DNA of 63,476 nucleotides. Origin: a virus. The stretch lies in the IMG/VR virus record IMGVR_UViG_3300045950_000243, positions 1 through 63,476 of that record; one strand, 5' to 3'. The stretch's first letter is position 1. Every line of letters starts with the position of its first letter. The notes below the pieces were generated by a model that had not been told where the DNA came from, did not search any database, and saw only the letters and a program-made list of their open reading frames with translations. The position numbers were made by a program, and so were the translations under genes. Positions 290 through 53,159 of this stretch are shown here, piece by piece.

Positions 290-733
290 TCAGGCCGACT
301 GCTCGATGATGAGCGACTCGTACGGCTTGGGCGGCGGCCCGAAGCAGGCGTCCCAGTCGTCCGCGCGGACCAGCTTCAGGGCCTTGGCGGCCTCCAGCTT
401 CTCGCGGTCGACCACGCGGACCGTGACGCGCTGGTAGACGCCGTTCTCGCGGTAGTTGTCGCGCGAGACGATCTCCAGGGCCTTGTCGCCCAGGAACGGG
501 GCGCCGCGCTGGCCGGTCGTGACGACGACGACGCGGCTGCCGGCGGTCAGGCGCCAGCGCGGCAGACCCGTCTTGGTCTGCTCCTCGGCGCCGTGCTGCT
601 TGGTGGCCGTCTTGATCTCGGCCTCCAGGTCCTCGACCTGCGCCCGCAGGCGCTCCAGCTTGAGCACCTTCTGCTCGACTTCGGCCGCGGGCGGGGCGAC
701 GACGGGACTCGGGGCTGCGGAGGCTGCCTTCAT
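290..733 (-). CDS. Unknown early protein with N-terminal coiled coil (147 aa)
   Basis: ATG start behind an ACAGGAGAACGACC leader. Residues about 15-48 form a heptad-rich, charged stretch (LKLERLRAQVEDLEAEIKTA) that should be a coiled coil. The rest is a mixed alpha/beta domain with VVVVTTGQRGAPFLG and a C-terminal FGPPPKPYESL. I do not recognise the family. The gene has its own strong promoter (782-809) inside the end of the upstream gene, so it is probably expressed early and at a high level together with the DUF7873-like gene. Confidence 0.7.
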   Translation of the reverse strand: MKAASAAPSPVVAPPAAEVEQKVLKLERLRAQVEDLEAEIKTATKQHGAEEQTKTGLPRWRLTAGSRVVVVTTGQRGAPFLGDKALEIVSRDNYRENGVYQRVTVRVVDREKLEAAKALKLVRADDWDACFGPPPKPYESLIIEQSA

Positions 734-1257
734 GGTCGTTCTCCTGTCTTGTCCGTCCTGACGTGTCCTACGACGTCCCCTACAGTACCCTCGTCAGGGG
801 CGGTGTCAAGCAGGTAGCCCTCCGCCCGGAGGGCCGCCGCCAGGGCCGGGGGCAGGAGCCCCGCCGGCAGGAACCGCCGCCGGGGGTGCGGGGAGCCGGC
901 GGACACGAGGACGACGGCGACCCCGTGGGCCAGGGAGTGCTTGCGGAGCGCCAGCGCCCAGGGAGTGGAAGCCGCCCCGGCCCGGATCTCGAAGAGCTTC
1001 ATGACGGGGCCCGCGACGCTCTTCGGCTGGAAGTCCACGACCAGCCCCGAACGGTCCGGGCGGTCCTCCTCGCCGCCGATGCCGAGGAGCCACTGGCAAG
1101 ACCAGACCCGGCACTGCTCGGGGCGTTGGGCGTAGATCGTGCACCCCAGGCCGACGTGGGCGCAGCGCTGGAACATCGGCTTGCCGAGGGCCTCGACCTC
1201 GTGCGTGTAGCAGCAGGCCGTGCAGGGACCGCAGGAGCGGCGGCGCACCAGCCTCAC
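730..1257 (-). CDS. YkgJ-type cysteine-cluster protein (175 aa)
   Basis: I chose the GTG at 1257, whose GTGA overlaps the TGA of the upstream gene. A longer frame exists upstream but is antisense-like Arg/Pro-rich sequence. The N-terminus carries Cys9, Cys12, Cys15, Cys16 (CGPCTACC) and then Cys32, Cys39, Cys49 and Cys54. This CxxC..CC plus spaced Cys pattern with RPEQCR matches the YkgJ/YcgN zinc- or iron-chelating family. Those are widespread bacterial proteins of poorly known function, probably metal binding. The C-terminal half is Ala/Arg-rich and unrecognised. A second member of the family is encoded in the tail region (22126-22566). Confidence 0.75.
   Translation of the reverse strand: MRLVRRRSCGPCTACCYTHEVEALGKPMFQRCAHVGLGCTIYAQRPEQCRVWSCQWLLGIGGEEDRPDRSGLVVDFQPKSVAGPVMKLFEIRAGAASTPWALALRKHSLAHGVAVVLVSAGSPHPRRRFLPAGLLPPALAAALRAEGYLLDTAPDEGTVGDVVGHVRTDKTGERP
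782..809 (-). promoter_or_regulatory. Sigma70-like promoter (member of shared-element family)
   Basis: Reading on the minus strand: TTGACA (809-804), a 16-base spacer, then TACTGT (787-782). The spacer holds CTGACG and the transcript leader holds CGTCAGG (complement of 757-763), so the inverted repeat CCTGACG...CGTCAGG (arms 792-798 and 757-763) straddles the -10 box. It drives the 147-residue gene at 733. The same arrangement recurs at 52463-52514 and, more loosely, at 2110-2145 and 9088-9116. Confidence 0.65.
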
Positions 1258-2102
1258 GGCACGACGACGCTGACCCGCCGGCAGTCGGCCCGGGTCAGGC
1301 GGTAGCGCTCGGCCGCGCCGAGGGGCGAGACCCCCGCGCTCACGGGCGTGACGTCGTGGACGCGGAGGAGGCCCCAGGCCGGCGCGGCGCCCCGCGACTG
1401 CCACCAGATCGTCTGCCCCGGGCGCAGGTCCTCGTACCGCCAGCCGGTCCGGACCTCCTCGTACTCAACCGCGGTCGGCTCGCCGACCTCCAGGAAGAAC
1501 TCCCGGCCCTTGACGGAGAACGACGGAGCGCCCTCCCGGATGCCCGGCCGCAGCGCCTCGAAGGCGAACGCGCGCCGACCCTTGACCAGACTCTGGACCG
1601 CACCGGGGTCGAGTTGGAACCGCATCCGGCTCCACTGCGACCACTCGGTCGCCCGGCCCTGCTGGTCGTAGGCGCGGACCTTGCCGCCGGAGCCCCAGAT
1701 GCCGGCCTCCTGCTCGTACTTGCGCAGGAGCCGGATCAGGTCCTCCAGCCGGAGGTTGGGCACGATCAGGCTGAGTTCCACGACCTCGCGCGCGTCGGGC
1801 GTGCCCGCGTTCTCGACCCAGCGGCCGACGGCCGGGATGAACCCCAGGCCGAGCGCCCGGACGTCGCGCTGGAGGCTCTTGTGGCGGGCCTGGTTGTCCG
1901 CCCGGCGGGCGGGGTTGCCGGCGTCGCGCATCGCGCTGAGCACCCCGAAGGAGTTGAACCTCTTCGGGTCGTTCAGGTAGGACCAGACCCGCGACAGCCC
2001 CGCCCCGACTTCGAGCATGGCGTGGGCGAGGCGGCGCGGAGCTTCGGCGGCCTCGCGCTGCGCGCGGTCCAGGACCTTCGCTAGGGCGGTCGCGTCAGCC
2101 AT
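1254..2102 (-). CDS. Unknown early protein (282 aa)
   Basis: ATG start with a GGGAGACCG leader and a conserved promoter-like element upstream (2110-2145). The N-terminal helix is followed by LSAMRDAGNPARRADNQARH, then LGLGFIPAVGRWVENAG and a hydrophobic LSLIVPNLRLEDLIRLLRKY. The sequence of 'N..R...L..D.R.LG.GF.P..G.W.E......E.SL.V' resembles small phage proteins sometimes placed near DUF3293, but the match is weak. The C-terminal third is beta-rich and may be a small SH3-like barrel (GQTIWWQSRG). It is translationally coupled (GTGA) to the YkgJ-type gene. No function is assigned. Confidence 0.65.
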   Translation of the reverse strand: MADATALAKVLDRAQREAAEAPRRLAHAMLEVGAGLSRVWSYLNDPKRFNSFGVLSAMRDAGNPARRADNQARHKSLQRDVRALGLGFIPAVGRWVENAGTPDAREVVELSLIVPNLRLEDLIRLLRKYEQEAGIWGSGGKVRAYDQQGRATEWSQWSRMRFQLDPGAVQSLVKGRRAFAFEALRPGIREGAPSFSVKGREFFLEVGEPTAVEYEEVRTGWRYEDLRPGQTIWWQSRGAAPAWGLLRVHDVTPVSAGVSPLGAAERYRLTRADCRRVSVVVP

Positions 2103-2109
2103 CGGTCTC

Positions 2110-2145
2110 CCTGACTTGTCATCCGTCTACCACGAACACGTCAGG
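2110..2145 (-). promoter_or_regulatory. Operator/promoter-like inverted repeat CCTGAC...GTCAGG
   Basis: The minus strand carries CCTGACGTG (2145-2137) and GACAAGTCAGG (2120-2110) upstream of the ATG at 2102. The second arm, ACAAGTCAGG, is identical to the one at the 52.5 kb promoter. A -35/-10 pair is less clear here (TTGCGG with a 17-base gap to TAGACG), so this could be a regulated weak promoter or an operator alone. It lies inside the end of the primase gene. Confidence 0.45.
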
Positions 2146-3197
2146 CCCGCAAGCCCGAAGCCGACGTCGCTGGCGAACCCGTCGTAGCGCATGGCCTCGG
2201 CGACGGCCCGCTGGACCGCCTCCGCGGGGACCGAGGCGGGGTCCTCCCCCTCGGGCAGGTTCGCCACCCGGACCCGCAGCCCCCGGCGGTGGAGCTGGCG
2301 GGCCAGCCGCCAGGCGTAGCGCCGCGCCAGGTCCTCCCCGTCGGGCAGCAGCACGAACTCGACCTCCGCACGGCGCAGGCCGGCGAGGCGCGGCAGGTCC
2401 GCGAGCAGGCCCTGCTGGTGGGGCGTGACGTAGACCCCAAGGGTCGCCACGGCGTCCGGCCCGGCACCCCAGGCGGACAGCGGGCCCTCGGCCACCAGCA
2501 CCCGCCGCGTCTGGCCCTCCCGCAGGCGGCGCGCCACGTCCCAGTACCGGTACAGGACCACGGCCCGCGACAGGCCGACCGGATTGCGGTACTTGGGCGT
2601 GTCCTCGTCGGCGTCCCCGAACCAACGCGCCACCCAGTAGCGCAGCCGGCGGTCGTCGTCGTAGACCGGCAGGAAGATCCGCCACCCCCAGTGGGCGCCG
2701 CTGCCGACGCGGGCGCCGTACTCCCGGATCTGCGGGTCGGAAAAGCCGCGGTCGCGCAGGTAGCGGTAGCTCTGCATCCCCAGCGACACGCGCCGGGTCC
2801 GGCACGGGAACTCGACCTCGACGGGCGCCGGCTCCTCGGCCGTCCGGGCGGGCAGGCCCAGCGCCCGGATGCGGTCCGCGATCGCCCGCCAGCTCTCGAC
2901 CGCGAACGCCTCGTCCAGGCCGTCGAGGCCCAGGTGCCGCAGCATGCCGTTGACGCTCGCGGTGTAGTGGCAGCGCTGGCAGTAGACGAAGCCGGTCGGC
3001 GAGCGCACCGTCGTCCCGTCGGCACGCGTGTGCTCGGTCTTGGTCGGGTTGACGTACAGGTGGTAGTGGGCGTCGGGCCAGGGCTTGCCGCGCTCCTCGC
3101 AGAACGGGCAGCACCAGACCCACTCGACGCCGCCCGAGCGCCGCGGCTCGCCCAGCACCGACATGACCCGCTCGACGACCGGCTCGACGCGCACCAC
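2127..3197 (-). CDS. DnaG-like DNA primase (356 aa)
   Basis: Primases make RNA primers at the phage fork together with the replicative helicase, encoded just upstream. The N-terminus has a zinc-binding module with CPFC (Cys30/Cys33) and CQRC (Cys73/Cys76). The middle holds a catalytic-core-like stretch (GWRIFLPVYD, YWVARW). A TOPRIM fold is indicated by VLVAEGPLSA (233-242, metal-binding Glu237) and LLPDGED (284-289). The TOPRIM acidic motif is DGED rather than the usual DxD pattern. GTG start at 3197 behind GGAGGACTGACCC; a second GTG follows at once. At 356 residues it is shorter than bacterial DnaG, as is usual for phage primases that lack a long helicase-interacting tail. Confidence 0.8.
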   Translation of the reverse strand: MVRVEPVVERVMSVLGEPRRSGGVEWVWCCPFCEERGKPWPDAHYHLYVNPTKTEHTRADGTTVRSPTGFVYCQRCHYTASVNGMLRHLGLDGLDEAFAVESWRAIADRIRALGLPARTAEEPAPVEVEFPCRTRRVSLGMQSYRYLRDRGFSDPQIREYGARVGSGAHWGWRIFLPVYDDDRRLRYWVARWFGDADEDTPKYRNPVGLSRAVVLYRYWDVARRLREGQTRRVLVAEGPLSAWGAGPDAVATLGVYVTPHQQGLLADLPRLAGLRRAEVEFVLLPDGEDLARRYAWRLARQLHRRGLRVRVANLPEGEDPASVPAEAVQRAVAEAMRYDGFASDVGFGLAGLTCSW

Positions 3198-3200
3198 GGG

Positions 3201-3353
3201 TCAGTCCTCCAGGAGGCGGAAGTCCAGGCCGCAGCGCGCGCAGTGCAGGGTACGGACGCCGCCGACGTCGACCTTGGTCACGGCGCACGGCCCGTTGCAG
3301 GACGGGCAGCGGATCTTGGTCGGCTCAGGCGCGGGCGCGTTCGGTTCGGGCAT
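3201..3353 (-). CDS. Zinc-ribbon mini-protein (50 aa)
   Basis: A short gene wedged between primase and helicase. The ATG at 3353 lies inside the end of the helicase gene (29-base overlap, different frame) and follows GGGAGCAGGACG. The stop is three bases before the primase GTG. The product is almost only a four-cysteine ribbon: CPSC (16-19), C23, then C38 and C41 (CARCGLDF). Such ribbons bind zinc and usually contact DNA, RNA or a protein partner. Its position suggests a helper of primase or helicase, but that is inference. Confidence 0.7.
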   Translation of the reverse strand: MPEPNAPAPEPTKIRCPSCNGPCAVTKVDVGGVRTLHCARCGLDFRLLED

Positions 3354-4737
3354 CGTCCTGCTCCCGCTTCTTCTCCGGGTGGATCTCCCGCAGCAGGCAA
3401 CGCTTCAGGTCGGCCCGCAGCGGAATCGAGAACTTGGCGCGGCCGGCGCGGTGCTTGGCCACGAACAACCGCAGCCGGTGCTTCTTTTCCTCGACCTCGG
3501 TCTGGGACAGCGAACAGACCAGGTGGGCCATCTGCGCCTTCTTGAGGCTCTCGCCCACCGCCGCCAGCCCCGGGGCCTCGTGGTCGTAGAACTCGCGGCG
3601 CACCTGGGCCGCGGTCCAGACCGGGCAGGACCAGTCCATGGCGACGGAGATCAGTTCGGAGTAGACCGCGCCGAAGGCCGCGTAGCTGGAGTCCTCGGTC
3701 GAGCGCGTCTCGCGGCGCGGCGGACGCAGCTCGTCGGCGTAGTCCACGACGATCAGGTCGGGCCGGACGCCGTCGTGCGCCTCGACGCGGGACAGGACGC
3801 TGCGCACCGTGGTGACGGGAGAGTCGGGATAGACCCGCACGATCCGCAGGTAGCGGTCGATGCCGCCCAGGCCGGCGAGCTGCTCGGCCGCCTCCTGGAA
3901 GGTCGGCGACTGCTCCTCGACCTCCGGGATCTCCGTCTTGGTGAGCCGCGACAGGCAGCGGATCAGCACGTCGTACTCGGGCATCTCGGTGCTGATGTAG
4001 ACGACGCGCTTGCCGGCGCGGGCGGGCGCACAGGCGACGTTCACCAGGAAACTGCTCTTGCCGATCCCGCTCTCTCCCATGACCAGACACAGGCGCCCCG
4101 CCCCGGCGCCGCCGCGCATCACGTGGTCGAGCGTCTTGAACCCGGTGCGGATGCGCAGCGTCGGGTTGTCGGTCGGGCTGCGGTGGCGGATGTGGTGCGC
4201 CGGGTCGTCGAAGACCTGCAATCCCAGGCTGCGGCCGGTGCCGACCGCCAGGGCGCGCTGGATCTTGGGGATGATCGCGTCGAAGCGGTCGCCCTCCGCC
4301 TCGCCCTCGACCGGCTCGCCGAGGTGTTGGACCACGTCGAGGATCGCGGCCTTGGTCGCCTGGATGCGGCCGAACTCGCCGACGTGCTCCCGGACCCAGG
4401 TCGCGTCCGTCGGCAGGTCGCGGTCGTAGAGGCGTTTGGCGTTCTTCTGCAGGGTCCCGCGCAGGTCGTCGTCCAGCTTGAAGCGCTCGGCGTGGCGCTC
4501 GATCTTGGCGAGCAGCCGGTCCCGCGTCGGGCGTTCCCGGAAGCGGTCGAAGTGCCGCAGCAGCAGCCGGGCGAGGATCGCGTCCTCGTCGCGCTCGAAG
4601 TAGCGCGGGTCGATCGCGTCGCGGACCTGGGTGAGGAAGGCGGGGTCGCGCACCGCCAGCGTGAGCACGTCCCGTTGGAACCGCGGACCGAACTGGTACT
4701 TGACCGGTTCGACGCCGACGCCGTTCCCGCCCGTCAT
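3325..4737 (-). CDS. Replicative DNA helicase, DnaB/RecA-like (470 aa)
   Basis: The hexameric 5'-3' helicase of the phage fork. ATG at 4737, just after GGGGAGGGGGGAGGACG; an upstream in-frame extension is Gly/Arg-rich and lacks a better start. The N-terminal domain (about 15-130) is helical, as in DnaB. The RecA core has Walker A GESGIGKS (221-228), the DnaB-typical STEMP (249-253), Walker B LIVVDYADEL (328-337) and a TAAQVRR motif (375-381). The length is standard. It heads a replication block with the zinc ribbon and the primase downstream, with overlapping or closely spaced genes. Confidence 0.88.
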   Translation of the reverse strand: MTGGNGVGVEPVKYQFGPRFQRDVLTLAVRDPAFLTQVRDAIDPRYFERDEDAILARLLLRHFDRFRERPTRDRLLAKIERHAERFKLDDDLRGTLQKNAKRLYDRDLPTDATWVREHVGEFGRIQATKAAILDVVQHLGEPVEGEAEGDRFDAIIPKIQRALAVGTGRSLGLQVFDDPAHHIRHRSPTDNPTLRIRTGFKTLDHVMRGGAGAGRLCLVMGESGIGKSSFLVNVACAPARAGKRVVYISTEMPEYDVLIRCLSRLTKTEIPEVEEQSPTFQEAAEQLAGLGGIDRYLRIVRVYPDSPVTTVRSVLSRVEAHDGVRPDLIVVDYADELRPPRRETRSTEDSSYAAFGAVYSELISVAMDWSCPVWTAAQVRREFYDHEAPGLAAVGESLKKAQMAHLVCSLSQTEVEEKKHRLRLFVAKHRAGRAKFSIPLRADLKRCLLREIHPEKKREQDDARTERARA

Positions 4738-4775
4738 CGTCCTCCCCCCTCCCCGTCCGCCCCGCCAAGAGCGGT

Positions 4776-5072
4776 TCAGGTCCGAACTGCGGCCCCCTCC
4801 GGCAACTCCGGCGGCTGCGGATGCCGCTGGAAGAACTCCTCGATGCCCCGATCCAAGACGCGGGCGTGGGTCTTCGCCATCTGCTGCGCGCACGCCAGCG
4901 TGTGCCAGCGCACCCACGGGTAGAGGGCAGCGACCACCGCGTCGGGAGACAGGCCGTCCGGGACGCTGATCTCGGCCTCGAAGGCCGCGCGGTGGGAATA
5001 CGTCAGGCCGTCGTCCAGGGGATCGGTCGGCAGTGTCACCTGCAGACCGATGCGCAGCGTGCGGACCTTCAT
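4776..5072 (-). CDS. Unknown small protein (98 aa)
   Basis: The ATG at 5072 overlaps the stop of the SF2 helicase gene (ATGA) and has GGGGAGGGCTGCC upstream. The sequence is MKVRTLRIGLQVTL followed by EAEISVPDGLSPDAVVAAL and a helical YPWVRWHTLACAQQMAKTHARVLD. No motif is recognised. It sits between the two helicase genes and is probably co-translated with them. Confidence 0.65.
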   Translation of the reverse strand: MKVRTLRIGLQVTLPTDPLDDGLTYSHRAAFEAEISVPDGLSPDAVVAALYPWVRWHTLACAQQMAKTHARVLDRGIEEFFQRHPQPPELPEGAAVRT

Positions 5073-6541
5073 GGCAGCCCTCCCCGAGCTGGGGCGCCGA
5101 TGGTAACGGGAAGTTCCTCCGCGCGGTAGAGGGATTCTCGCTCCTTGGAGTGGTCCCGCAACCAGCGGTGGTGGCGGTCGAAGAAGTCCACTACCCGTAC
5201 GGTGCGCTTGCCGTCGGACGGCGTGAGCGCGCGGAAGGTGCGCTGGAGGGTCGCAATCGAGGACTTCTGCCCCCCGGCGTTGACGAGTCCGTCGAGCCAG
5301 GGGAAGTCCACGCCCTCGTCGAAGACGGTGGTGCCGATCAGGATGGGCCGCTCGCCGCTGCGGAAGCGCGCCAGGTCCTCGGCCGTGAACTCGCTCCAGC
5401 GCCGGGCCCCGTCGCGCAGCGTGGCCTTGCGGCGGCCGCCGATGGACAGGACGGGCTCCAGGCCGGCGGCCGCCATCGCCTCCAGGAGGCCGAGGCCGTG
5501 GCGGACCTGGGTGACGAGCACCAGGACGCGGCGCTGTTCCTGCACCATGCTGCGGACCGTCTGGAGGACGAGCGCGTTGCGCACCGCATGCTCGACGATG
5601 CCCTCGCGGTAGACCGTCGGGAACGGCAGCTTGGGGGGAACCTTGGGCTCCGTGAGGGGAATCATGTACAGCTCGGCCGGGGCAAGGTAGCCCAGGTCCC
5701 GGAGATAGGCGGCCCCGACGTCGACCAGCAGCGGCCCGGCCGCCCCGATCAGCCGCAGGTCCTGGGGCTCGTAGCTGCCGCCGCGGGCGCGCAGCGGCGT
5801 GCCGGAGTAGGCGTACCGCCACGGCGCTTCCGACTCGCGGAAGATCCGCCGCCAGCTTGCCGCCGAGAGGTGGTGGGCCTCGTCGCTCTGGAGGAGTTCC
5901 CGGGACGCCAGGAACCGCAGGGCCGTCGGGTCCTGGCGGCGCAGGCGCGGGGAGAGCGTCTGCACCATGGCGATGACGTGCTGCGCGCTGAGTTCCCGGT
6001 GGCCCCGCCCGTAGCGGCCGACGTCGGTCAGGCCGCGGGCCCGGAAGCGCTCGTAGTGCTGCTCCAGCAGGTGCTGGGAGTGCACCAGCAGCACGGACGG
6101 CACGCCGAGGTACTTGGCGACGGCGATCTGGATCTCGGTCTTCCCCGACCGCGGGCTCAGCTTGAGGACGCCACGGCGCGCGGGGAGGGCGCGGCGGAGC
6201 GCCCAGAGCTGGTAGGGCCGCAGCGTGATGCCGTCGAGGTAGTCCGGCGGGATCGTGGGCCGCGGCGCGGGCGGCGGGACGCCGCGGGCGGTCAGCGTTA
6301 GGCCGTCCTCCTCGGCCTGGCGGATCAGCCACTCGGTCAGGCCCGTCGGGTAGGAGAGCGTCCGGGTGCGGCGCTGCCAGCGGTAGAAGCGATGCTTGCC
6401 GTCCCACTCGCCGCTGCGGAACTTCGGGGAACGCCACTTGTTCGGGTCGTCGACCGTGAGCAGGTGGCGGACGGCGGCGACCGCCTCCCGGGGTCCGACG
6501 ACGCGAGTATGGGCGTGCCCGTAGTGGAGTTCGGCCTTCAC
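5069..6541 (-). CDS. SF2 DNA helicase, UvsW-like (490 aa)
   Basis: A superfamily-2 ATP-dependent helicase, likely acting in fork restart or recombination like T4 UvsW. The start is GTG at 6541, overlapping the TGA of the upstream gene by four bases; upstream sequence in this frame is non-coding in character. Residues 1-100 form the small N-terminal domain typical of UvsW-type enzymes. Motif I is SPRSGKTE (129-136), where an R replaces the usual glycine. Motif II is DEAHH (220-224) and motif III SGTP (246-249). Domain 2 has ILIGTTVFDEGVDFP and the arginine-finger motif QRTFRALTPSDGK. Confidence 0.85.
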   Translation of the reverse strand: MKAELHYGHAHTRVVGPREAVAAVRHLLTVDDPNKWRSPKFRSGEWDGKHRFYRWQRRTRTLSYPTGLTEWLIRQAEEDGLTLTARGVPPPAPRPTIPPDYLDGITLRPYQLWALRRALPARRGVLKLSPRSGKTEIQIAVAKYLGVPSVLLVHSQHLLEQHYERFRARGLTDVGRYGRGHRELSAQHVIAMVQTLSPRLRRQDPTALRFLASRELLQSDEAHHLSAASWRRIFRESEAPWRYAYSGTPLRARGGSYEPQDLRLIGAAGPLLVDVGAAYLRDLGYLAPAELYMIPLTEPKVPPKLPFPTVYREGIVEHAVRNALVLQTVRSMVQEQRRVLVLVTQVRHGLGLLEAMAAAGLEPVLSIGGRRKATLRDGARRWSEFTAEDLARFRSGERPILIGTTVFDEGVDFPWLDGLVNAGGQKSSIATLQRTFRALTPSDGKRTVRVVDFFDRHHRWLRDHSKERESLYRAEELPVTIGAPARGGLP

Positions 6542-7455
6542 ACGGCGACCGGGACGGCGGCGGCGTTCTCGGGCAGCACCGGCTCGACGTACTGGTGGAA
6601 GCGGGACGAGAGCAGGCCCCAGCGGCGCACCCCGAGGCGCGAGGCCAGGAGGGCCGGGATCAGCGGCAGGGCGTAGCACAGGGGCCGCGGGCGGAGTTCC
6701 TCGCCGGTCTTCTCGCGGTAGCGCACGTCCACCCAGATCCCGAGTTCGGGGACCGGCTGGAACTGCACCGAGGCCGGGACGTAGGCACCGCGCTCCAGGC
6801 GGTAGACCCCGAGGGTCCGGCGCGGCCGGCGGGCGAAGCGCAGGAAGTCCGCCGGGTCGTAGACCCGCCCCCGGTAGCACCACTTGGGGCGCAAGAGCTT
6901 GGTGCGGATGGCGGCCTTGCGCAGGGCGCGCCACTCCCGGACGGGCAGGATGTTGGCGTTCTTGCGGTGGCTGGTGATGCCCCGCAGGACCCGGTGGGTG
7001 ACGAGCAGGACGGGCAGGCGGGCGACGTAGCAGTTCACCCGCCAGTCGAGGTACAGGCCGGAGCGCTCGAAGGCTTCGGTCTCGGCCCGGCCCTTGAACC
7101 ACACCCAGTTGCGCCCCACCTGGAGGTCCGCCCGGAAGGGGGACACGCAGCGGAAGCGGTCGGCCTGGAGTTCGAGCAGGTCCCACACCGCCCGGGCGAT
7201 GTAGGCGTAGGGGTCGCCCTGCAGGCGGCGCTCCTGCTCCTCGCGGCTCAGGAGCAGCGAGGGGACCTCGCAGACGTACTCGGTCGGCACCTGGACCTGG
7301 ACGCGGCGGCCGCAGAAGCCGGGCAGGTCGACAACGGCGTGGCGGACGTTCCAGCGGACCAGGGAGCCGCGGTAGCCGGCGAACGGGCCCCGCTGGACCG
7401 TGACCTCCAGGCCCTCGCGCAGCTCCCGGTAGTCGAGTTCCCCGTACGCCGCCAT
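6538..7455 (-). CDS. Unknown protein with KOW/SH3-like N-terminus (305 aa)
   Basis: ATG start with GGGAGGGGCGGG upstream and a sigma70-like promoter at 7476-7503. Residues about 13-60 (LEVTVQRGPFAGYRGSLVRW...VVDLPGF) fit a KOW/SH3-type barrel of the kind seen in NusG and some nucleic-acid-binding proteins. The rest, with many Trp, Tyr and Arg residues and a VLRGITSHRKNANILP segment, is unfamiliar. It is translationally coupled to the SF2 helicase (GTGA), so a role in nucleic-acid handling is plausible but not shown. Confidence 0.65.
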   Translation of the reverse strand: MAAYGELDYRELREGLEVTVQRGPFAGYRGSLVRWNVRHAVVDLPGFCGRRVQVQVPTEYVCEVPSLLLSREEQERRLQGDPYAYIARAVWDLLELQADRFRCVSPFRADLQVGRNWVWFKGRAETEAFERSGLYLDWRVNCYVARLPVLLVTHRVLRGITSHRKNANILPVREWRALRKAAIRTKLLRPKWCYRGRVYDPADFLRFARRPRRTLGVYRLERGAYVPASVQFQPVPELGIWVDVRYREKTGEELRPRPLCYALPLIPALLASRLGVRRWGLLSSRFHQYVEPVLPENAAAVPVAV

Positions 7456-7475
7456 CCCGCCCCTCCCGCCCGGAC

Positions 7476-7503
7476 ATCATGCCCGCGGGGCGGCGGGCGT
7501 CAA
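7476..7503 (-). promoter_or_regulatory. Sigma70-like promoter upstream of the KOW-like gene
   Basis: On the minus strand: TTGACG (7503-7498), a 16-base spacer, then CATGAT (7481-7476). The preceding CCTGACTTGACG includes the CTGAC half-site of the shared element and overlaps the stop codon of the 248-residue gene. The spacer holds a GCCCGC/GCGGGC inverted repeat. It would drive the KOW-like gene and the helicases. Confidence 0.45.
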
Positions 7504-8246
7504 GTCAGGGGGTCGGGACGCCGGAACCGGCAGCGCTTGGAGAACCGCTCCCAGAGCGCGTGGATGCCCTGGAGCGTCGCCCGCTCGGCGGCGTAGTGGC
7601 GGGCGGCCGCCCGGGTCGGGAACACCGGCAGGTGGCCGTAGACCAGCTCCGGCTGCACCGGCACCGCCGCCCGGACGCCGTCCTCCTGGTTCACGGCCCA
7701 GGGATGCGTCTCCCGGACGAGGTGGCACAGGACCGCGGCTTCCAGGCCCGAGAGCGTCGGGCGGGCGACCCGGCGGCCGCGCACGTCGGCGACGAAGGCT
7801 TCGCAGGTCGGGTCGAAGCGCGCGGTCGCGGGCCCGCCCAGGGCGAGGTCGGCCACGCGGTCCGCCGCCGGGGCGAGCAGCGCCGCCAGCCCGAGCTGCT
7901 GCCGGAGGCGGCGCCAGGTCCGCTCCTCAGCCGGCGTGAGGGGCCGCAGGAGCGTCCGCGGGGCCATCTTCGTGCGGCGGCCCTCCGGGTCCACGACCAG
8001 GAACCACCCCTCGCGCTGGCCGACCACCTGCACCGGTTCGAGGCTGCGCGCCAGGACGGCCGGAGACTTCGGGAAGCGCTTCTGGCGGCGCGGGAGGCGG
8101 CCCTGCCGCAGGCCCGAGCGCAGTTCCCGGACGCTCCAGACCGGCCGGAACACCTGGGAGCCGCGGAGGAGGTAAAGGCGGCCCGTCGCGTCGACGCGCA
8201 CCCGCTCGCCGCCCTCCAGGGTGTACAGCCCCGGCTCGGCGAGCAT
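7500..8246 (-). CDS. Unknown protein, paralogue of its neighbour (248 aa)
   Basis: ATG at 8246, one base after the stop of the next gene upstream. The N-terminus is beta-rich (GLYTLEGGERVRVDATGRLYLLRG). The middle and C-terminal half share an order of motifs with the 264-residue neighbour: 'LRPLTPAE...RLR', 'AFVADVRG', an 'H...WAVN' segment, 'GVRAAV', 'FPTRAAARHYA'. This points to duplication and divergence. Basic residues dominate (PRRQKRFPKSP). No known family is recognised. Confidence 0.65.
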   Translation of the reverse strand: MLAEPGLYTLEGGERVRVDATGRLYLLRGSQVFRPVWSVRELRSGLRQGRLPRRQKRFPKSPAVLARSLEPVQVVGQREGWFLVVDPEGRRTKMAPRTLLRPLTPAEERTWRRLRQQLGLAALLAPAADRVADLALGGPATARFDPTCEAFVADVRGRRVARPTLSGLEAAVLCHLVRETHPWAVNQEDGVRAAVPVQPELVYGHLPVFPTRAAARHYAAERATLQGIHALWERFSKRCRFRRPDPLT

Positions 8247-8247
8247 G

Positions 8248-9042
8248 TCAGTCGAACACCCGCAGGTCGAACTGCAGGCCCCGGAGGATGTCGTGGTGTC
8301 GCCGGGACAGGTCCTGGTCCTGCCGGCGCAACGCCACCAGGGCGGCCGCCTCGGACTCGCTGCGAAAGTACCGGGAGAACCAGCAGGACCCGGCGTCCAG
8401 CGTCGGACGCACGTGGTCCCCCGACACGACCGCGTAGGGGTAGTGCTGGGCGAGGAAGTGCGTCTCGACGGCGGTCTGGATCTCCTGCGGGCCGGCGCCG
8501 GAGAACTTGACCCCAGCGACCTCAGCGACCAGCGCGTCCTGTTCGGCGTCGAACGCCGCCGTCACGTCAGGAAGGGCCAACTCCTTGAGGGCGTCCGTCT
8601 GGGAGACGCCGAGGCGGCTCTCCCGCTCGGCGATCTCCTCCCGTTCGGCCCGCAGCTTCCGGAGCGCCGCGGCCTCCGCCTCGGTCACGGGCCGCAGCAC
8701 GTCGGCGGCCCGGAGGGTCTCTCGGGTGCCGTTCTCCAGGACCACGATGGCGCGCTCTTCGGTCCGGTAGCGGCCGTCCCGGCCGACGACGGAGATCGGG
8801 CTCAGGTTGGTCGCGCGCGTCCCCGGGTAGGCGGTGGCTGCCTTGCGGGCGGCCTTGGCCTGCCGTTGGCGCTGGACCGTCGACAGGTGCTCTTCGATCC
8901 GCTCGCACAGGAGGCGCAGAGAGCGGGCGGTGAACTCCTTCCCGGCGAACACGGCCGTGATGCCGTAGGGGTGGACGGAGGCGATGACCTCCTTGTCGCC
9001 AATGCGGAGGGTGTGCCGGGACGCCTGGACGACGACGCGCAT
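8248..9042 (-). CDS. Unknown early protein, paralogue of its neighbour (264 aa)
   Basis: I use the ATG at 9042, 46 bases from the promoter's -10 box and behind GGAGAACGAACCCCC. A longer frame runs into the regulatory region and is not coding-like. The protein opens MRVVVQASRHTLRIGDKEV, has a helical Arg/Lys-rich centre, and then carries the same motif series as the 248-residue gene: 'VLRPVTEAEAAALRKLR', 'ALVAEVAG', 'HYPYAVVSGDHVRPT', 'FRSESEAAAL'. As first gene after a strong promoter it is probably abundant early. Function unknown. Confidence 0.7.
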   Translation of the reverse strand: MRVVVQASRHTLRIGDKEVIASVHPYGITAVFAGKEFTARSLRLLCERIEEHLSTVQRQRQAKAARKAATAYPGTRATNLSPISVVGRDGRYRTEERAIVVLENGTRETLRAADVLRPVTEAEAAALRKLRAEREEIAERESRLGVSQTDALKELALPDVTAAFDAEQDALVAEVAGVKFSGAGPQEIQTAVETHFLAQHYPYAVVSGDHVRPTLDAGSCWFSRYFRSESEAAALVALRRQDQDLSRRHHDILRGLQFDLRVFD

Positions 9043-9087
9043 GGGGGTTCGTTCTCCGGTCCGTGTCCTGGGAAGACAACACGACGG

Positions 9088-9116
9088 ATCGTAGGACACG
9101 TCAGCCGGCGCGTCAA
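9088..9116 (-). promoter_or_regulatory. Strong sigma70-like promoter
   Basis: On the minus strand: TTGACG (9116-9111), 17-base spacer, TACGAT (9093-9088). The spacer contains CTGACGTGTCC. The 16-base string CTGACGTGTCCTACGA here (9104-9089, minus) recurs exactly at 758-773 but on the opposite strand, downstream of the 782-809 promoter. It drives the 264-residue gene. Confidence 0.65.
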
Positions 9117-9162
9117 GGCGCGTTTGGGTTCCCCCCGCGTACCCCCCTCCGTCCCGGCGGGC

Positions 9163-9184
9163 CTCTCCCCCTATAGGGGGAGAG
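9163..9184. repeat. Perfect 22-bp palindrome (copy 1)
   Basis: Core CTCCCCCTATAGGGGGAG with two further paired bases on each side. Perfectly self-complementary around the TA at 9173/9174. Fits a dimeric repressor operator or a replication-initiator site better than a terminator, because no T-run follows on either strand. Confidence 0.75.
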
Positions 9185-9345
9185 AGGTCCCTCGCCGTGG
9201 ACTCCGGAGGAGAAAGAAGTTCGCCAGGGATGGCTTTTTCTGTTCTGGAGCACGTTGTTCGGACACGCCAGTCCGGTTTCGGTCTCCGGCCGAAAAACAT
9301 GCTCCAGGACGCTCCCCAGCACGAAGTTCGTTCCAGCCGGCAACT

Positions 9346-9369
9346 CTACTCCCCCTATAGGGGGAGTAG
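9346..9369. repeat. Perfect 24-bp palindrome (copy 2)
   Basis: Same 18-base core as copy 1, with three further paired bases on each side that differ from copy 1. Each copy keeps perfect self-complementarity although the flanks differ, which suggests selection on the palindrome itself. Centres are 184 bases apart. Confidence 0.75.
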
Positions 9370-9463
9370 GCACAAGGGGCGGCCGCGCCAGGTCCTCGCT
9401 CCCCGAAGACCGAGGGGCTGACCCGGGCTTGCCTGACCTCTTTCTTTCGGGCGGAAGTCACGC

Positions 9464-9469
9464 TAGGAT
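9464..9469 (+). promoter_or_regulatory. Weak candidate -10 box for the rightward gene
   Basis: TAGGAT, 41 bases before the TTG start at 9510; the best -35 partner at 17 bases is TTTCTT, which is poor. A CCTGAC half-site of the shared element lies at 9432-9437. The promoter may need an activator, or I may have missed the real one. Confidence 0.25.
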
Positions 9470-9509
9470 GCCGCCCCGAGTTCCACACCCCTGAGCACAG
9501 GAGGTTGCG

Positions 9510-10016
9510 TTGTCCATCAAGGTCCAGATCACCGTGCCCGAGGGCACCGTGTCGGTGGAGGGCCAGCCGGCGCTCGCCCGGCGCCTCTTCGACCTGGCCG
9601 CCCGCGGCGAGTTCGGGCCCAGCCGGGCGACCGTCACCAGCACCGTCGCCTCCAAGGCGGGGCGCAAGACCCAGGTCGCTACCGCGGCCCTGGCCGGGTT
9701 GCTGCGGAAGCTGATCGTCGCCGGCCGCAAGGGCCTGAGCGGCGCGGAAGCCGCTGCCTGCCTGGGGGTGCACCCCAAGGCGGTCGGCCACGCCTGGAAG
9801 ACCGTCGACCTGCCGGAGGACGCCGTGGCGTTCCGCCGGACCGAGTTCGGCCGCCGCTGGATGCCCGGCAAGGGCGCCAAGAAGGCCCTGGCAGCCCTGG
9901 AGAAGGGGGCGGCCAAGGCCGTCACCATCGTGGCCCCGAAGCCCGCCAAGGCCGCGCGGAAGGCCAAGGAGGAGGCTCCCGAGGCGCAGCCGGCCTCCGG
10001 GAACGCCTCGGGCTAG
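9510..10016 (+). CDS. Winged-helix-like DNA-binding protein with Lys/Ala tail (168 aa)
   Basis: Starts at TTG, five bases after CAGGAGG. Residues 1-30 form a small beta/alpha opening. Residues 60-115 look like a winged helix, with the helix-turn-helix around 76-98 (LSGAEAAACLGVHPKAVGHAW). The last 45 residues are Lys/Ala/Pro-rich (PKPAKAARKAKEEAP), like histone-H1-type tails. It lies directly right of the two palindromes and is transcribed away from the early genes, so it is the best local candidate for their binding protein. An alternative is a nucleoid-associated protein. No family match is claimed. Confidence 0.7.
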   Translation: MSIKVQITVPEGTVSVEGQPALARRLFDLAARGEFGPSRATVTSTVASKAGRKTQVATAALAGLLRKLIVAGRKGLSGAEAAACLGVHPKAVGHAWKTVDLPEDAVAFRRTEFGRRWMPGKGAKKALAALEKGAAKAVTIVAPKPAKAARKAKEEAPEAQPASGNASG

Positions 10017-22080: not shown

Positions 22081-22125
22081 GGGGTCCTCCTTTGGGGCGG
22101 AAACAGCTCCCCAGCAGAACCGCTG

Positions 22126-22566
22126 CTAGACGCGCCAGGCGGGCCGCAGAGCCGGGGGCGGCGCCGGACGGAGGTTGGTACGGGGGTCCCCCGCGGAAGC
22201 CGCCACGCCCCAAGTCTTGCGAAGCGTCTCGATGACCAGGGAGTCCACCGCCTGGAGGAGCGCCGCGGCCTCGGCCGGGGTCTCGGCGGCGAAGTCGAGG
22301 AGCGCTTCCCGCTCCACGATCCGCTCGCCTCTGGCTCGGAAGTTCGGGCAGAAGGTCGGCCAGACGACCCGCGGGTCCTGGACCTGGCCGCACCAGGGAA
22401 CCTCCCGGCGCGTCTCGTAGCGCGTGCACAGGCCGTCCCGGCCCAGGTGGGGGCAGGCGACTCGGGACCGGACCAGGACGCGCTCCTGGCCCCAGCGGAC
22501 GGGGGCGGAGAAGAAGCAGCAGGCCCCCAGGGAGGGGCAGGCGGTGCACTCCGCGAGGTCGGTCAT
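22126..22566 (-). CDS. YkgJ-type cysteine-cluster protein in the tail operon (146 aa)
   Basis: ATG at 22566 overlapping the stop of the upstream gene. Eight cysteines in the family spacing: Cys7, Cys10, Cys16, Cys17 (GACC), Cys38, Cys47, Cys59 and Cys73. CPHLGRDGLCTRYETRREVPWCGQ is close to the bacterial YkgJ consensus. The family probably chelates zinc or iron. Its place between the spike proteins suggests a role in metallating the PAAR tip or in the virion itself, which is inference. A second, diverged copy is in the early region (730-1257). Confidence 0.72.
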   Translation of the reverse strand: MTDLAECTACPSLGACCFFSAPVRWGQERVLVRSRVACPHLGRDGLCTRYETRREVPWCGQVQDPRVVWPTFCPNFRARGERIVEREALLDFAAETPAEAAALLQAVDSLVIETLRKTWGVAASAGDPRTNLRPAPPPALRPAWRV

Positions 22567-38251: not shown

Positions 38252-40735
38252 TCAGATCGGAGTCAGGGGGCTGGCCGGGGTCGGGGTCAGCGGCAGGTGG
38301 ACCCGGGCGTCAAAGGCCACACCCTTCGTGCTGCTGCTGGCCTGGACCAGGGCGTCGAACGGCACGGCGGCCGGGAGGTCGTCGCGGCGCACGGCGGCGT
38401 CGAGGGCGACGGTCTGGGTCCGGTTCTGAATCCGGACGGCGGCGTCGAGGGCGACGCTCTTGGTGCCCGCCGGGTCGTTGACCGCCGCGTCGAAGGCGAC
38501 GGCCCGCGTGTTGATGCCGGCGACCACGCCGTCCCAGGTCAGGGCCCGGGTCAGCCGCAGGGCGACCGCCGCGTCGAAGGCGACCGTCTTGGTCGTCCGC
38601 AGCGCGACGATGGCGTCGAGCGTCTGCCCCGAGGTCCGGTTGGCGAGCTGGACCGCCGCGTCCAGGCCGACCGCCTGCGTAGCCGACGACAGGACGACGT
38701 AGCCGTCGAACACCACGACGGCGATACCGCGCTCCGCCACGGCGCCGTCCCAGGTCAGCGGCAGGCTCGGCTGGCCGATGACCCGGGCGTCGAAGGCGAC
38801 GCTCTTGGTCAGGTTGACCGTCGTCGAGACGTAGGCGTCGAACGGCGCCCATTGGGTGCGGGCCTGCACCTGAACCGCGGCGTCGAGGCTGACCGTCTTG
38901 GCGGCGTTGACGAGCTGCACGGCGGCGTCCGCCGTGATGGTCTGGGTCCGATCCCGGACTTGGACCGCCGCATCGGCGGCGACGGTCTTGGTGAGGTTGG
39001 CGAGCTGCACCGCGGCGTCGCAGTCAGCGCCCTTCGTCCGGTCCGGCACCCGCACGGCGGCATCGGCCGTGACGGACTGCGTGCGGTTGAGCACCAGCAC
39101 CGCTCCGTCCCAGGCGACGGTCTTGGTGGCGTTCTGCAGGAGGACTGCCGCGTCGAAGGCGGCGGGCTTGACCGAGTTGTTGGCGTTGACGAAGCCGTCC
39201 CAGACGACACCCTGCGTACGGTCCAGGAGCCGCACGGCCGCGTCGAGGCTGACCGTCTTCGTGTTCGTCGCGCGGACGAACCCGTCCCAGGCGACGGTCT
39301 GCGTCCGGTTTTGGACCTGCACGGCGGCGTCCGCCGTGACGGGCTTCACCGCCCCGAGAAGCTGCACGGCGGCATCGAAAGCCGCCGACTTGCTGAGGTT
39401 CAGGACCTGGACGCCGGCATCGAGAGTCGCGCCCGCCGTGAGGTTCGAGAACTGCACCGCGGCGTCGAAGTCGACCGGCTGCTGCATCGTGACCGCCGGG
39501 ATCTCGACAAGGCCGTCCCACGCGACCGTCTTGGTGCGGTTGAAGACCTTGACCGCGCCGTCCCAGGCGACGGTCTTGGTGAGGCCGGTGAGCTTGACCG
39601 TGCCGTCCAGCAGCACCCAACTGGCGCGGTTCTGCACCTGGACTGCGCCGTCCCAGTTCTGGCGGACGGCCCCGTCCACGTGGGCGTCGAACGCCACCGT
39701 CTTCGTCTGGTTTTGGACTTGGACCGCCGCGTCGGCGGCGACGGTCTGCGTCCGGGGAATCTGCACGGCCGCATCCGCCGCGACGGTCTTCGTCCGGTTC
39801 AGGACTTGGACCGCCCCGTCCCAGTTGACGGCGAGTTCGACGTCCTCGAACAGGACGGCAGCCATGATCTGGAGCGCGACTCCCAGTTTCTGCTGGACCG
39901 CGGCGTCGAAAGCGACGGTCTTCGTCGCATTGATGAGCTGTACCGCAGCGTCGAAGGCGACCGTCTTGGTGAGGTTGGCGAGCTGCACCGCCGCATCCAG
40001 AGCGGCGGTCTGGGTCCGGTTCTGGATTTGGACCGCAGCGTCCAGGCCGACCGGCTGGGTGCGGTTCTGGATTTGTACGGCCGCGTCGAAGTCAACCGTC
40101 TTGGTGACGTTCGGAATCTGCACCGCGGCATCGGCGGCGACGGCCTGGGTCAGATTCTGGATCTGCACGGCCGCGTCGAACGCGACGGTCTTGGTCAGGT
40201 TCTGGATCTGAACCGCCGCGTCGAGGGTGAGGCGCTTGACCTCGTTGTTGATCTGGTACGTGACCTCGGTGTACATGTAGGTCACGCGCCGGACCACGGT
40301 GCCGGTGCCACCGGCGATGACGCCCATCTCCAGGCTGTCGATGTCGGAGGTGGTCCAGGAGCCGCCGTCCGACGGGCGCGTCGTCCAGGTGCCGCTGTAC
40401 AGCGCGTAGCTCGTCGTCAGCTCGATGAGCGCCGTGCCGGTGTTGGTCGCGTTCTCCCGAATCCGGATGCGGATCTTGCTGTTCGTGTCCGTCGAGTTCA
40501 GCCGGGCCTTGGCGTAGACCTTGACCTGGTTGACCTGGACCGTCCCCTCGACGTTGCCGTAGCTCGGGTTGTCGAGGGTGAAGTGCTGGATCTCGGCGGA
40601 GGGGTCGCTATCGGCGTTGAGGTAAGTGGTGTCGGCGTCGTCGGTGTCGACGGCGTTGACCTTGTCCGCCGTGCCGGTGACCGACCAGTCGTCGAACGCC
40701 CCGATCCCGTCAGCCGTCAGCGTGACGATCGCCAC
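38252..40735 (-). CDS. Neck-region protein with ~43 tandem 15-residue repeats (827 aa)
   Basis: Residues 1-165 are a beta-sandwich-like domain (VKVYAKARLNSTDTNSKIRIRIREN). From about 168 to the end the protein is one array of 15-residue units with consensus TKTVAFDAAVQLQNL. I count about 43 units, a few of them 13-17 residues long or merged. 'D-A/G-x-V' is nearly invariant. Where the preceding residue is Trp, the next pair is DG (WDG); otherwise it is mostly DA. The period and the alternating hydrophobics suggest a beta-solenoid, perhaps a neck whisker or collar fibre. No known repeat family is matched. A two-unit copy occurs in the gene at 22563-22988. Confidence 0.85.
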   Translation of the reverse strand: MAIVTLTADGIGAFDDWSVTGTADKVNAVDTDDADTTYLNADSDPSAEIQHFTLDNPSYGNVEGTVQVNQVKVYAKARLNSTDTNSKIRIRIRENATNTGTALIELTTSYALYSGTWTTRPSDGGSWTTSDIDSLEMGVIAGGTGTVVRRVTYMYTEVTYQINNEVKRLTLDAAVQIQNLTKTVAFDAAVQIQNLTQAVAADAAVQIPNVTKTVDFDAAVQIQNRTQPVGLDAAVQIQNRTQTAALDAAVQLANLTKTVAFDAAVQLINATKTVAFDAAVQQKLGVALQIMAAVLFEDVELAVNWDGAVQVLNRTKTVAADAAVQIPRTQTVAADAAVQVQNQTKTVAFDAHVDGAVRQNWDGAVQVQNRASWVLLDGTVKLTGLTKTVAWDGAVKVFNRTKTVAWDGLVEIPAVTMQQPVDFDAAVQFSNLTAGATLDAGVQVLNLSKSAAFDAAVQLLGAVKPVTADAAVQVQNRTQTVAWDGFVRATNTKTVSLDAAVRLLDRTQGVVWDGFVNANNSVKPAAFDAAVLLQNATKTVAWDGAVLVLNRTQSVTADAAVRVPDRTKGADCDAAVQLANLTKTVAADAAVQVRDRTQTITADAAVQLVNAAKTVSLDAAVQVQARTQWAPFDAYVSTTVNLTKSVAFDARVIGQPSLPLTWDGAVAERGIAVVVFDGYVVLSSATQAVGLDAAVQLANRTSGQTLDAIVALRTTKTVAFDAAVALRLTRALTWDGVVAGINTRAVAFDAAVNDPAGTKSVALDAAVRIQNRTQTVALDAAVRRDDLPAAVPFDALVQASSSTKGVAFDARVHLPLTPTPASPLTPI
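38282..40234 (-). repeat. Coding array of 45-bp units (15-residue protein repeat)
   Basis: About 43 head-to-tail units. At DNA level the units are clearly diverged, with different synonymous codons and substitutions. The array is therefore old and kept by selection on the protein rather than by recent slippage. Unit length is nearly always a multiple of three, with rare one- or two-residue indels. Confidence 0.85.
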
Positions 40736-41312: not shown

Positions 41313-41783
41313 TCAGATTTCGTCGTAGACGGCCACGAACTGGTTGTCGGTGATCTCACCGCCCGCGGCGTTGGTCGCCACGTCGATCTGGGTGTAGAAC
41401 AGGTCGCCCCACTGGCCCGTGCCGGTCTTGGTGCCCGAGTTCGTCCAGGACACTTCCGACGTGGTGAGCGTGGTCGTGGCGACCGTCGAGTCGGTGCCCA
41501 CCGGCTGGGTGTAGGTCGCGGTGAAGCCGTAGTACATCGTCAGGCCGGTGTCCATCGCCAGGTTCAGCTTCACCCGCAGGTTGCTGAGCTGGCTGGACGG
41601 GGCGACCGTGACGTTGATGCGGCACGCCTTCTCGAACGACCGGTTCACGCCCGAGGTCGGCCGGACCAGCGGGTTGATCGAGTCGTCCGTGTTGTCGTTG
41701 GCGGCCTTGAAGCGCAGCTTCGTCACCGCGCCCCAGGTCGCCGTAGCGGCCGTGGAGTTCTCCCACGTGAGAGTTGCAGCCAT
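41313..41783 (-). CDS. Probable small structural protein (156 aa)
   Basis: All-beta composition rich in Thr, Asn and Ser (LTWENSTAATATWGAVTKLRFKAANDN, VNRSFEKACRINVTVAP, TMYYGFTATYTQPVGTDS), ending DNQFVAVYDEI. No catalytic motif. Such Thr-rich beta proteins next to major capsid genes are often decoration or head-fibre proteins. The assignment is by composition and position only. Confidence 0.55.
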   Translation of the reverse strand: MAATLTWENSTAATATWGAVTKLRFKAANDNTDDSINPLVRPTSGVNRSFEKACRINVTVAPSSQLSNLRVKLNLAMDTGLTMYYGFTATYTQPVGTDSTVATTTLTTSEVSWTNSGTKTGTGQWGDLFYTQIDVATNAAGGEITDNQFVAVYDEI

Positions 41784-41786
41784 GCA

Positions 41787-42188
41787 TCACTCCTTGGACT
41801 CGAAGACGCGCAGCAGTTCGCCGTTGGGGTCGAACTCCACGCGCAGCCTGGGCAGCACGCTGTCGCTCAGTCCGGCCTGCCGCGCGGCTGCCTGGAACGC
41901 GGCCTGGAAGTCGGCCTCCGCGGCGCGGTACTTCTGCACCGTCTCCTGCCGGTGCCGCTCCGCGGACAGCAGGCGGTCGGCGGCCCGCCGGGAATGTTCC
42001 CGGTAGTCGAGGTCCAGCCGCAGCTTGGCGGCCTGGGCCTCCTCGTGCTCCTGCTGGGCCCGCTGCGCCGCGTCCTCCGCGAACCGCAGGGCCCAGCGGC
42101 GCTTCTCCAGGAGCAGGCGCTGCTCGCCGGTCAGCTCGACCGCGCCCGTCCCGTTGGACGGGGTTTCGACGGCAACCGTCTCGGCCAT
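41787..42188 (-). CDS. Coiled-coil protein (133 aa)
   Basis: Residues 20-105 are almost pure charged helix (LLLEKRRWALRFAEDAAQRAQQEHEEAQAAKLRLD..., YRAAEADFQAAFQ), a long coiled coil. The C-terminal 25 residues (VLPRLRVEFDPNGELLRVFESKE) are a short beta tail. It could be a capsid assembly or internal head protein. Unknown family. Confidence 0.6.
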   Translation of the reverse strand: MAETVAVETPSNGTGAVELTGEQRLLLEKRRWALRFAEDAAQRAQQEHEEAQAAKLRLDLDYREHSRRAADRLLSAERHRQETVQKYRAAEADFQAAFQAAARQAGLSDSVLPRLRVEFDPNGELLRVFESKE

Positions 42189-42191
42189 GGC

Positions 42192-42680
42192 TCAGCCCCG
42201 CCGGAGCAGCTTGCGGGCGAGGTCGAGCTTCGGCAGCTCCATGGCGTCGGCCGGCAGGTCGACGCCGAGGAACTCCGCCAGCTTCGCCATGTCCTTGCGG
42301 CTGTTGCCGACCAGTTCCAGGACCTGGTACTCGTCGGCCTTGGCCAAGAGTTCGGTCCACTGGCCGCGGGACTTGCCGAGGCACTTGTCCTTGCTGACCG
42401 GCTCGTCGGCGGCCTTCTTGGGCCGCTGGAGCAGGTCGTCGAGCAGGTGGAGCGGGTCGACGATCCGGGAGACGTGGGTCTCCTCGGGGCACTGGATCAG
42501 GCCCTTCTTGGGGTCGACGCACCGGCGGAACGGGGCGCCGATGACCACCTGTCCGGGCTTGATCGTGACGCGGTTGCCGGTCGGCGTCGGGACCACGACG
42601 TCGAACGGCTGACGGTTGATGAAGAACGGCACCTGCCTGGTCTGCCGGACGGTCTCCGGCTCCTGCTGCACTGCGGCCAT
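42192..42680 (-). CDS. Unknown capsid-region protein (162 aa)
   Basis: The N-terminus is beta-rich: FINRQPFDVVVPTPTGNRVTIKPGQVVIGAPFRRCVDP. This is followed by a basic helical region and 'WTELLAKADEYQVLELVGNSRKDMAKLAEFLGVD'. It is the first gene after the major capsid gene, beyond a strong stem-loop. It could be a head vertex or cement protein, but no motif shows this. Confidence 0.55.
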   Translation of the reverse strand: MAAVQQEPETVRQTRQVPFFINRQPFDVVVPTPTGNRVTIKPGQVVIGAPFRRCVDPKKGLIQCPEETHVSRIVDPLHLLDDLLQRPKKAADEPVSKDKCLGKSRGQWTELLAKADEYQVLELVGNSRKDMAKLAEFLGVDLPADAMELPKLDLARKLLRRG

Positions 42681-42734
42681 GGTGGGCCTCCGAAAAGCGG
42701 GAGCACGACGTCAGTCCCGCCGTGCCATGGGGAA

Positions 42735-52462: not shown

Positions 52463-52490
52463 TTGAATCCAGCCTGACGTGCGGTACTAT
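52463..52490 (+). promoter_or_regulatory. Sigma70-like promoter of the plus-strand accessory operon
   Basis: TTGAAT (52463-52468), 16-base spacer with CCTGACGTG, TACTAT (52485-52490). Downstream, TAGGACAAGTCAGG and a second GTCAGG (52509-52514) complete inverted repeats with the CCTGAC at 52473. The leader GTCAGGACGGACAA is shared with the 782-809 promoter. Confidence 0.68.
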
Positions 52491-52514
52491 CTTGGTAGGA
52501 CAAGTCAGGTCAGG
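52473..52514. promoter_or_regulatory. Operator-like inverted repeat over the promoter
   Basis: CCTGAC (52473-52478) faces GTCAGG at 52504-52509 and again at 52509-52514. The arms are 31 and 36 bases apart, the same offsets (30 to 36) as at 2110-2145 and 757-798. The arms flank the -10 box, so a protein bound to both would block or bend the promoter. Confidence 0.5.
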
Positions 52515-52533
52515 ACGGACAAAGGAGAACGCG

Positions 52534-53121: not shown

Positions 53122-53159
53122 AGTCCTTCGGACACGGGACAGAAGGGAGAACGCGAACC

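Follow-up and report, generated by a model that had tools for sequence, protein, structure and literature searches.

Repeated operators in phage promoters and the phage under study

The ESAS elements of cluster K mycobacteriophages are imperfect inverted repeats of 15-17 bp with a variable spacer, lying within a SigA-like promoter and upstream of a conserved leader (SAS) that resembles a ribosome site; they are found in non-structural regions and their function is unknown (PMC3203893, PMC11373665). Some SAS leaders lack the repeat, the sequence of the repeat differs between subclusters, and its regulator is unknown (PMC3203893, PMC11373665). Phages of Microbacterium cluster EG carry 18-bp start-associated inverted repeats, and those of cluster O mycobacteriophages are similar (PMC7302621). 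The stoperators of cluster A mycobacteriophages are 13 bp long, occur more than twenty times per genome and are orientated with transcription (PMC9283540).

The stretch analysed here, hereafter the window, is the whole IMG/VR contig IMGVR_UViG_3300045950_000243 (63,476 bases, GC 70.4%), with genes called by a simple composition method. Family matches to T4-type genes (gp23-type capsid, gp21-type protease, tail sheath, gp19-type tube and T4-type baseplate) and to replication genes (DnaB-like helicase, primase and a second helicase) indicate that it is part of a GC-rich T4-like myovirus, and it is probably a fragment of the phage genome. No near relative was present in the phage collection, a search with the sheath alignment returned only AT-richer distant phages, and no relative was found in viral contigs for the helicase or for the proteins encoded behind two of the sites described below (S1 and S4). 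Two proteins were unexpected in a T4-like phage: a large one with a kinase-like domain of the zeta-toxin/AAA_33 type (54571-58122, minus strand) and one of the sulfatase family (62122-63357, minus strand). An 827-aa protein (38252-40735, minus strand) with many imperfect 45-base (15-residue) repeats is probably fibre-like.

By analogy, four sites in the window, S1 to S4, can be placed in the general kind of phage promoters with a repeated operator; the ESAS/SAS system and the actinophage start-associated repeats are the closest, without membership by sequence or by arm placement. As in ESAS/SAS, an inverted repeat with a variable spacer lies upstream of gene starts at S1, S2 and S4, and the leader word of the window is, as there, found both together with a promoter repeat and on its own. 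However, the ESAS arms lie on the -35 and -10 boxes, whereas those of the window lie on the spacer/-10 and on the start/leader, and the TGTTGACATGCATACAG-type arms and SAS GGGATAGGAGCCC of phage Anaya are unrelated to the CCTGACKTGTCCTAC and GGAGAACG of the window. Moreover, the copies in the window are few and its phage is a T4-like myovirus. The cluster EG/O repeats resemble the window sites in being short, inverted and placed between genes shortly before a start codon. They differ in their compact form (GATCAACCNNGGTTGATC) and in a distance of 14-22 bp to the start codon; the arm pairs of the window extend over 36-42 bp around the -10 box. With the stoperators the window has in common a short asymmetric site at several places including promoters, although it has four loci only, as facing pairs, at promoters. 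Promoters of MerR-type activators have their dyad in an over-long spacer of 19-20 bp; in contrast, the spacers are 16-17 bp in the window and 16 bp in the relative described below.

The four sites and their arms

The earlier note had located four promoter-like places carrying CTGACG, and direct reading of the sequence confirmed them all. At S1, a sigma70-like promoter (782-809, minus strand; TTGACA-16-TACTGT), recognised like those of S3 and S4 by direct reading and by a consensus scan, overlaps a putative operator at 757-798 (minus strand) with arms CCTGACGAGGG and GTAGGACACGTCAGG and a span of 42 bp. Its left arm covers the spacer and -10; its right arm, counted from the expected start, occupies about +4 to +20. 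S1 falls within the final codons of the open frame 730-1257 (minus strand), which lies between the S2 gene and the S1 gene; the latter (290-733, minus strand) encodes 147 aa without a family match and is preceded by the leader GTCAGGACGGACAAGACAGGAGAACGACCATG (731-762, minus strand). The putative S2 operator (2110-2145, minus strand; CCTGACGTG...CAAGTCAGG, span 36 bp) lies over the end of the primase gene (2127-3197, minus strand), ahead of a 282-aa gene with a DUF3293 match (1254-2102, minus strand). It is the cleanest inverted repeat of the sites, yet its promoter is weak (TTGCGG, no good -10).

S3 has a sigma70-like promoter at 9088-9116 (minus strand; TTGACG-17-TACGAT) and a putative operator arm at 9089-9105 (minus strand; GCTGACGTGTCCTACGA), with a facing arm that is only partial (AGGACACG core). 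Its leader (9040-9072, minus strand; CAGGACACGGACCGGAGAACG..ATG) is related to those of S1 and S4, and leads into a minus-strand operon that begins with the gene at 8248-9042 and continues with 7500-8246, 6538-7455 (a weak antiterminator-family match) and the helicase. The long divergent gap at 9043-9509, adjoining the helicase/primase operon, contains the palindrome CTCCCCCTATAGGGGGAG twice, as well as an inverted repeat surrounding GGAGCACGTTGTTC, and is possibly a replication origin. Further on, a strong sigma70-like promoter (10158-10033, minus strand; TTGACA-16-TAGCAT) has a dyad of its own, CCGAGGACCGTAGCATCGGTCCCTCGG, over the -10, and an intrinsic terminator lies about 70-100 bases beyond it, which makes this promoter a candidate source of a small untranslated RNA.

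On the plus strand, S4 combines a sigma70-like promoter (52463-52490; TTGAAT-16-TACTAT) with a putative operator at 52473-52509 (CCTGACGTGCGG...GTAGGACAAGTCAGG, span 37 bp), an additional GTCAGG at 52509-52514, the leader GTCAGGACGGACAAAGGAGAACGCGATG (52509-52536) and a gene for 195 aa (52534-53121). A weak opposite-facing promoter match within S4 (52513-52486, minus strand; CTGACC-16-GATAGT) lies 46 bp from the divergent gene 50569-52440, and S4 may work in both directions.

The -35 and -10 boxes of S1, S3 and S4 are 16-17 bp apart, and the motif is present in three of the few sigma70-like promoters that the consensus scan found in the window. The arms of S1, S2 and S4 are about 16 bp long and separated by 10, 4 and 5 bp, respectively, with the outer 6-7 bp most conserved; a single arm of about 15 bp (CCTGACKTGTCCTAC) is proposed as the unit that is bound. 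The word CTGACGTGTCCTACGA occurs exactly at 758-773 (plus strand) and 9089-9104 (minus strand), with no third copy in the record.

CTGACG alone is not enriched in the window (62 found against 67 expected) and is ruled out as the motif, its frequency being at chance level. In contrast, the facing pair CCTGAC..GTCAGG at 30-44 bp is found at three loci (757-798, 2110-2145 and 52473-52509), each directly upstream of a gene, against a mean of 0.14 loci in dinucleotide shuffles, of which one in 400 reached three. In a separate shuffle test none of 300 reached the four pairs as seen, and among all hexamers tested CCTGAC gave the largest excess of facing pairs just upstream of genes. When the window was scanned with an arm matrix, S3 and the right arms scored highest, and the next matches were stop- or start-codon coincidences or lay in coding DNA. 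With each arm left out in turn, the right arms and S3 took ranks 1-5 and the left arms of S4, S2 and S1 ranks 14, 20 and 589; thus, CCTGACG is nearly all that the left arms have in common. At 7476-7509 (minus strand), a match resembling a promoter and containing CCTGACTTGACG was put down to chance, because its TGA is a stop codon. The idea that one DNA-binding protein reads a shared family of promoter-operators is therefore supported by repeats that exceed chance and stand at gene starts on both strands, while the "phage-wide" regulon proposed with it amounts to four sites in a 63-kb record that is probably a fragment.

S1 and S4 form a near-duplicate unit with arms, -10 region and leader in common. 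Their upstream regions are the best-matching of all 2556 pairs (40-nt score 39, null maximum 29), and GTCAGGACGGACAA occurs exactly only at 749-762 (minus strand) and 52509-52522 (plus strand); the genes behind the two sites are not homologous. The alignment covers nearly 70 columns including the leader, as expected if S1 and S4 were copies of one promoter-leader unit spread by recombination, their likeness reflecting shared ancestry and no protein operator. This explanation is improbable, since S2 and S3 carry the arm but not the other parts of the unit, the arms within a promoter are inverted repeats of one another, and the palindrome of the relative described below recurs in five otherwise differing promoters.

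The leaders themselves have GGACGGACAA in common and, 2-7 nt before the start codons of the S1, S3 and S4 genes and of the gene starting at 53160 (plus strand), the word GGAGAACG, which the earlier note had missed. The last of these belongs to a leader-like copy at 53130-53162 (plus strand; GGACACGGGACAGAAGGGAGAACGCGAACCATG) without promoter or arms; five further copies of GGAGAACG in the window are all within genes. The word exceeds a plain Shine-Dalgarno sequence. Such shared words near the start codon, together with the weak antiterminator match in a downstream gene product, would suit a signal at the RNA level, either a translation element or the nut-like antitermination site that the earlier note gave as its alternative. 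We consider this very improbable: the left arm, being within the -35/-10 spacer and ahead of the expected start, should stay outside the transcript, so that a nut or antiterminator signal is not supported. Moreover, the transcribed leaders fold no better than shuffles, whereas nut/put sites are stem-loop RNA elements.

A colinear relative with a different operator family

The one relative found, the distant contig G001 (149,155 bases, about 65% GC), was reached via the capsid protein. It is colinear with most of the window, which corresponds to about 41-125 kb of G001, and protein identity is about 25-49%. The pair CCTGAC..GTCAGG does not occur in G001. Instead, an equally clear and different operator family occupies promoters in corresponding places, which further supports the promoter-operator reading. 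The palindrome CCTGTAWTACAGG (core CCTGTANTACAGG) is present, with at most one mismatch, in seven copies, against 0.017 in shuffles. All seven lie in intergenic gaps ahead of genes; six precede a start by no more than 100 bp, and for the seventh the distance from its nearest edge is 99 bp.

A sigma70 scan of G001, blind to operators, gave five promoters, each close to a gene start or in a gap. Three of them had CCTGTAWTACAGG or a near copy in the spacer; a fourth had another palindrome, CCTTGATCAAGG, in the same place. This third palindrome adjoins the -10 in the spacer of promoter L158:7292-7319 (G001 87292-87319, plus strand), and is alike in design and different in sequence. Five clear G001 promoters carry the palindrome next to either the -35 or the -10 and differ otherwise: those at 39769 (TTGA-CCTGTAATACAGG), 41606 (TTGA-CCTGTAATCCAGG), 52317 (TTGA-CCTGTAATCCAGA, two mismatches), 66586 (TTGACCaga-CCTGTAATACAGG-TATCTT) and 116091 (TTGACAcga-CCTGTATTACAGG-TATGCT). 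A partner palindrome with one mismatch lies at 52296, 21 bp upstream of the 52317 copy.

Two of the places match directly: S2 and G001 41606 both lie behind the primase, and S4 and G001 116091 are both the first promoter of the plus-strand island before the homologue of 54571-58122. S1 and G001 39769 match in order, as the second promoter two or three genes on. Indeed, the minus-strand order is in both genomes primase, operator, two or three genes, operator, gene (2127-3197, S2, 1254-2102, 730-1257, S1 and 290-733 in the window; 41632-42681, 41606, 41557-39900, 39769 and 38445-39701 in G001). Most of the genes that follow the operators are not homologous; thus, across the two genomes compared, the operators keep their position and design but differ in sequence and in the genes they precede. 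By eye, the S1 gene resembled the one following G001 41606, but the two gave no alignment. A different sequence in corresponding places of a distant relative probably points to a phage-wide on/off switch with a fast-evolving recognition sequence.

The two phages may have different hosts, and their operator sequences could differ for this reason if the sites served a host regulator that tied phage early genes to the state of the host; that no phage regulator was found would agree with this. Such an arrangement is quite unlikely, given that the leader-plus-arm pattern (the combined pattern, not the arm alone in the true host) had two unrelated-looking, chance-like matches in 84,980 prokaryote genomes. 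In viral contigs, the exact 16-mer gave 40 matches, mainly in coding DNA and mostly in one recurring gene encoding HPDVSYD, and the paired pattern gave 20, none with a convincing promoter context. An unrelated GC-rich viral contig has three copies of CCTGACGTGTCA, tandem and inverted, overlapping an open frame (L136:6168-6204). No bacterial operator was found in a literature search on the operator words.

Mode of action and meaning

We consider it probable (roughly 0.6) that S1, S3 and S4 are early or accessory promoters for host sigma70 with built-in operators for one phage-encoded DNA-binding protein, S2 having the same operator with a weaker promoter. This protein is most likely a repressor. 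The arms would usually form a facing pair that encloses the -10 box and the start of transcription, 36, 37 or 42 bp from end to end, and a protein on them would block RNA polymerase. The genes would thus fire on phage entry through the host polymerase and be shut down as the protein accumulates. As the arm distance varies and the second arm of S3 is partial, one dimer across both arms is unlikely, and each arm is probably bound separately. The weak points are the poor promoter of S2, the partial second arm of S3 and left arms that match weakly apart from CCTGACG.

A good operator with a poor promoter, as at S2, is often seen in activator-dependent promoters, and G001 encodes a Mor-like protein (E 6.5e-6, below the curated cut-off) of a family that includes transcription activators. 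It is thus conceivable, although unlikely, that the arms bind a phage-encoded activator that switches the promoters on, for instance in a middle phase. However, S1, S3 and S4 already possess both core promoter boxes, 16-17 bp apart, the right arms of the window cover about +1 to +20, and the Mor-like protein has no counterpart in the window. The G001 palindrome, moreover, takes two different positions within the core promoter; such shifting, with the variable arm distance of the window and the 16-bp spacers of G001, fits steric repression by blocking RNA polymerase better than an activator needing a fixed position.

As regulator, the earlier note had proposed a 168-aa protein (9510-10016, plus strand). 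Its HTH-like stretch was seen by eye only, its structure model was unusable (pLDDT 42), phage and PDB searches gave no relative, and no homologue was detected in G001. This protein and the Mor-like one of G001 (gene 22117-22527) are first candidates for the regulator. G001 also encodes a protein with sigma70 region 2, which is absent from the window.

A wider reading takes the repression further, to a regulon of early and accessory genes in GC-rich T4-like phages, in which colinear relatives would retain the operator positions but have an entirely exchanged operator sequence. It would resemble the immunity of temperate phages, but in a virulent-type lineage, and we regard it as speculative and rather doubtful. 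T4 is known for the stepwise replacement of promoter recognition; to our knowledge, it is not known for operators embedded in early promoters. The operator turnover between relatives is the most interesting part of these results. If true, an operator repeated in a T4-like lineage and replaced wholesale in a relative at unchanged promoter positions would illustrate clearly how a regulator and its many sites change together in nature, and would offer a rule by which the early genes of uncharacterised GC-rich myoviruses can be found.
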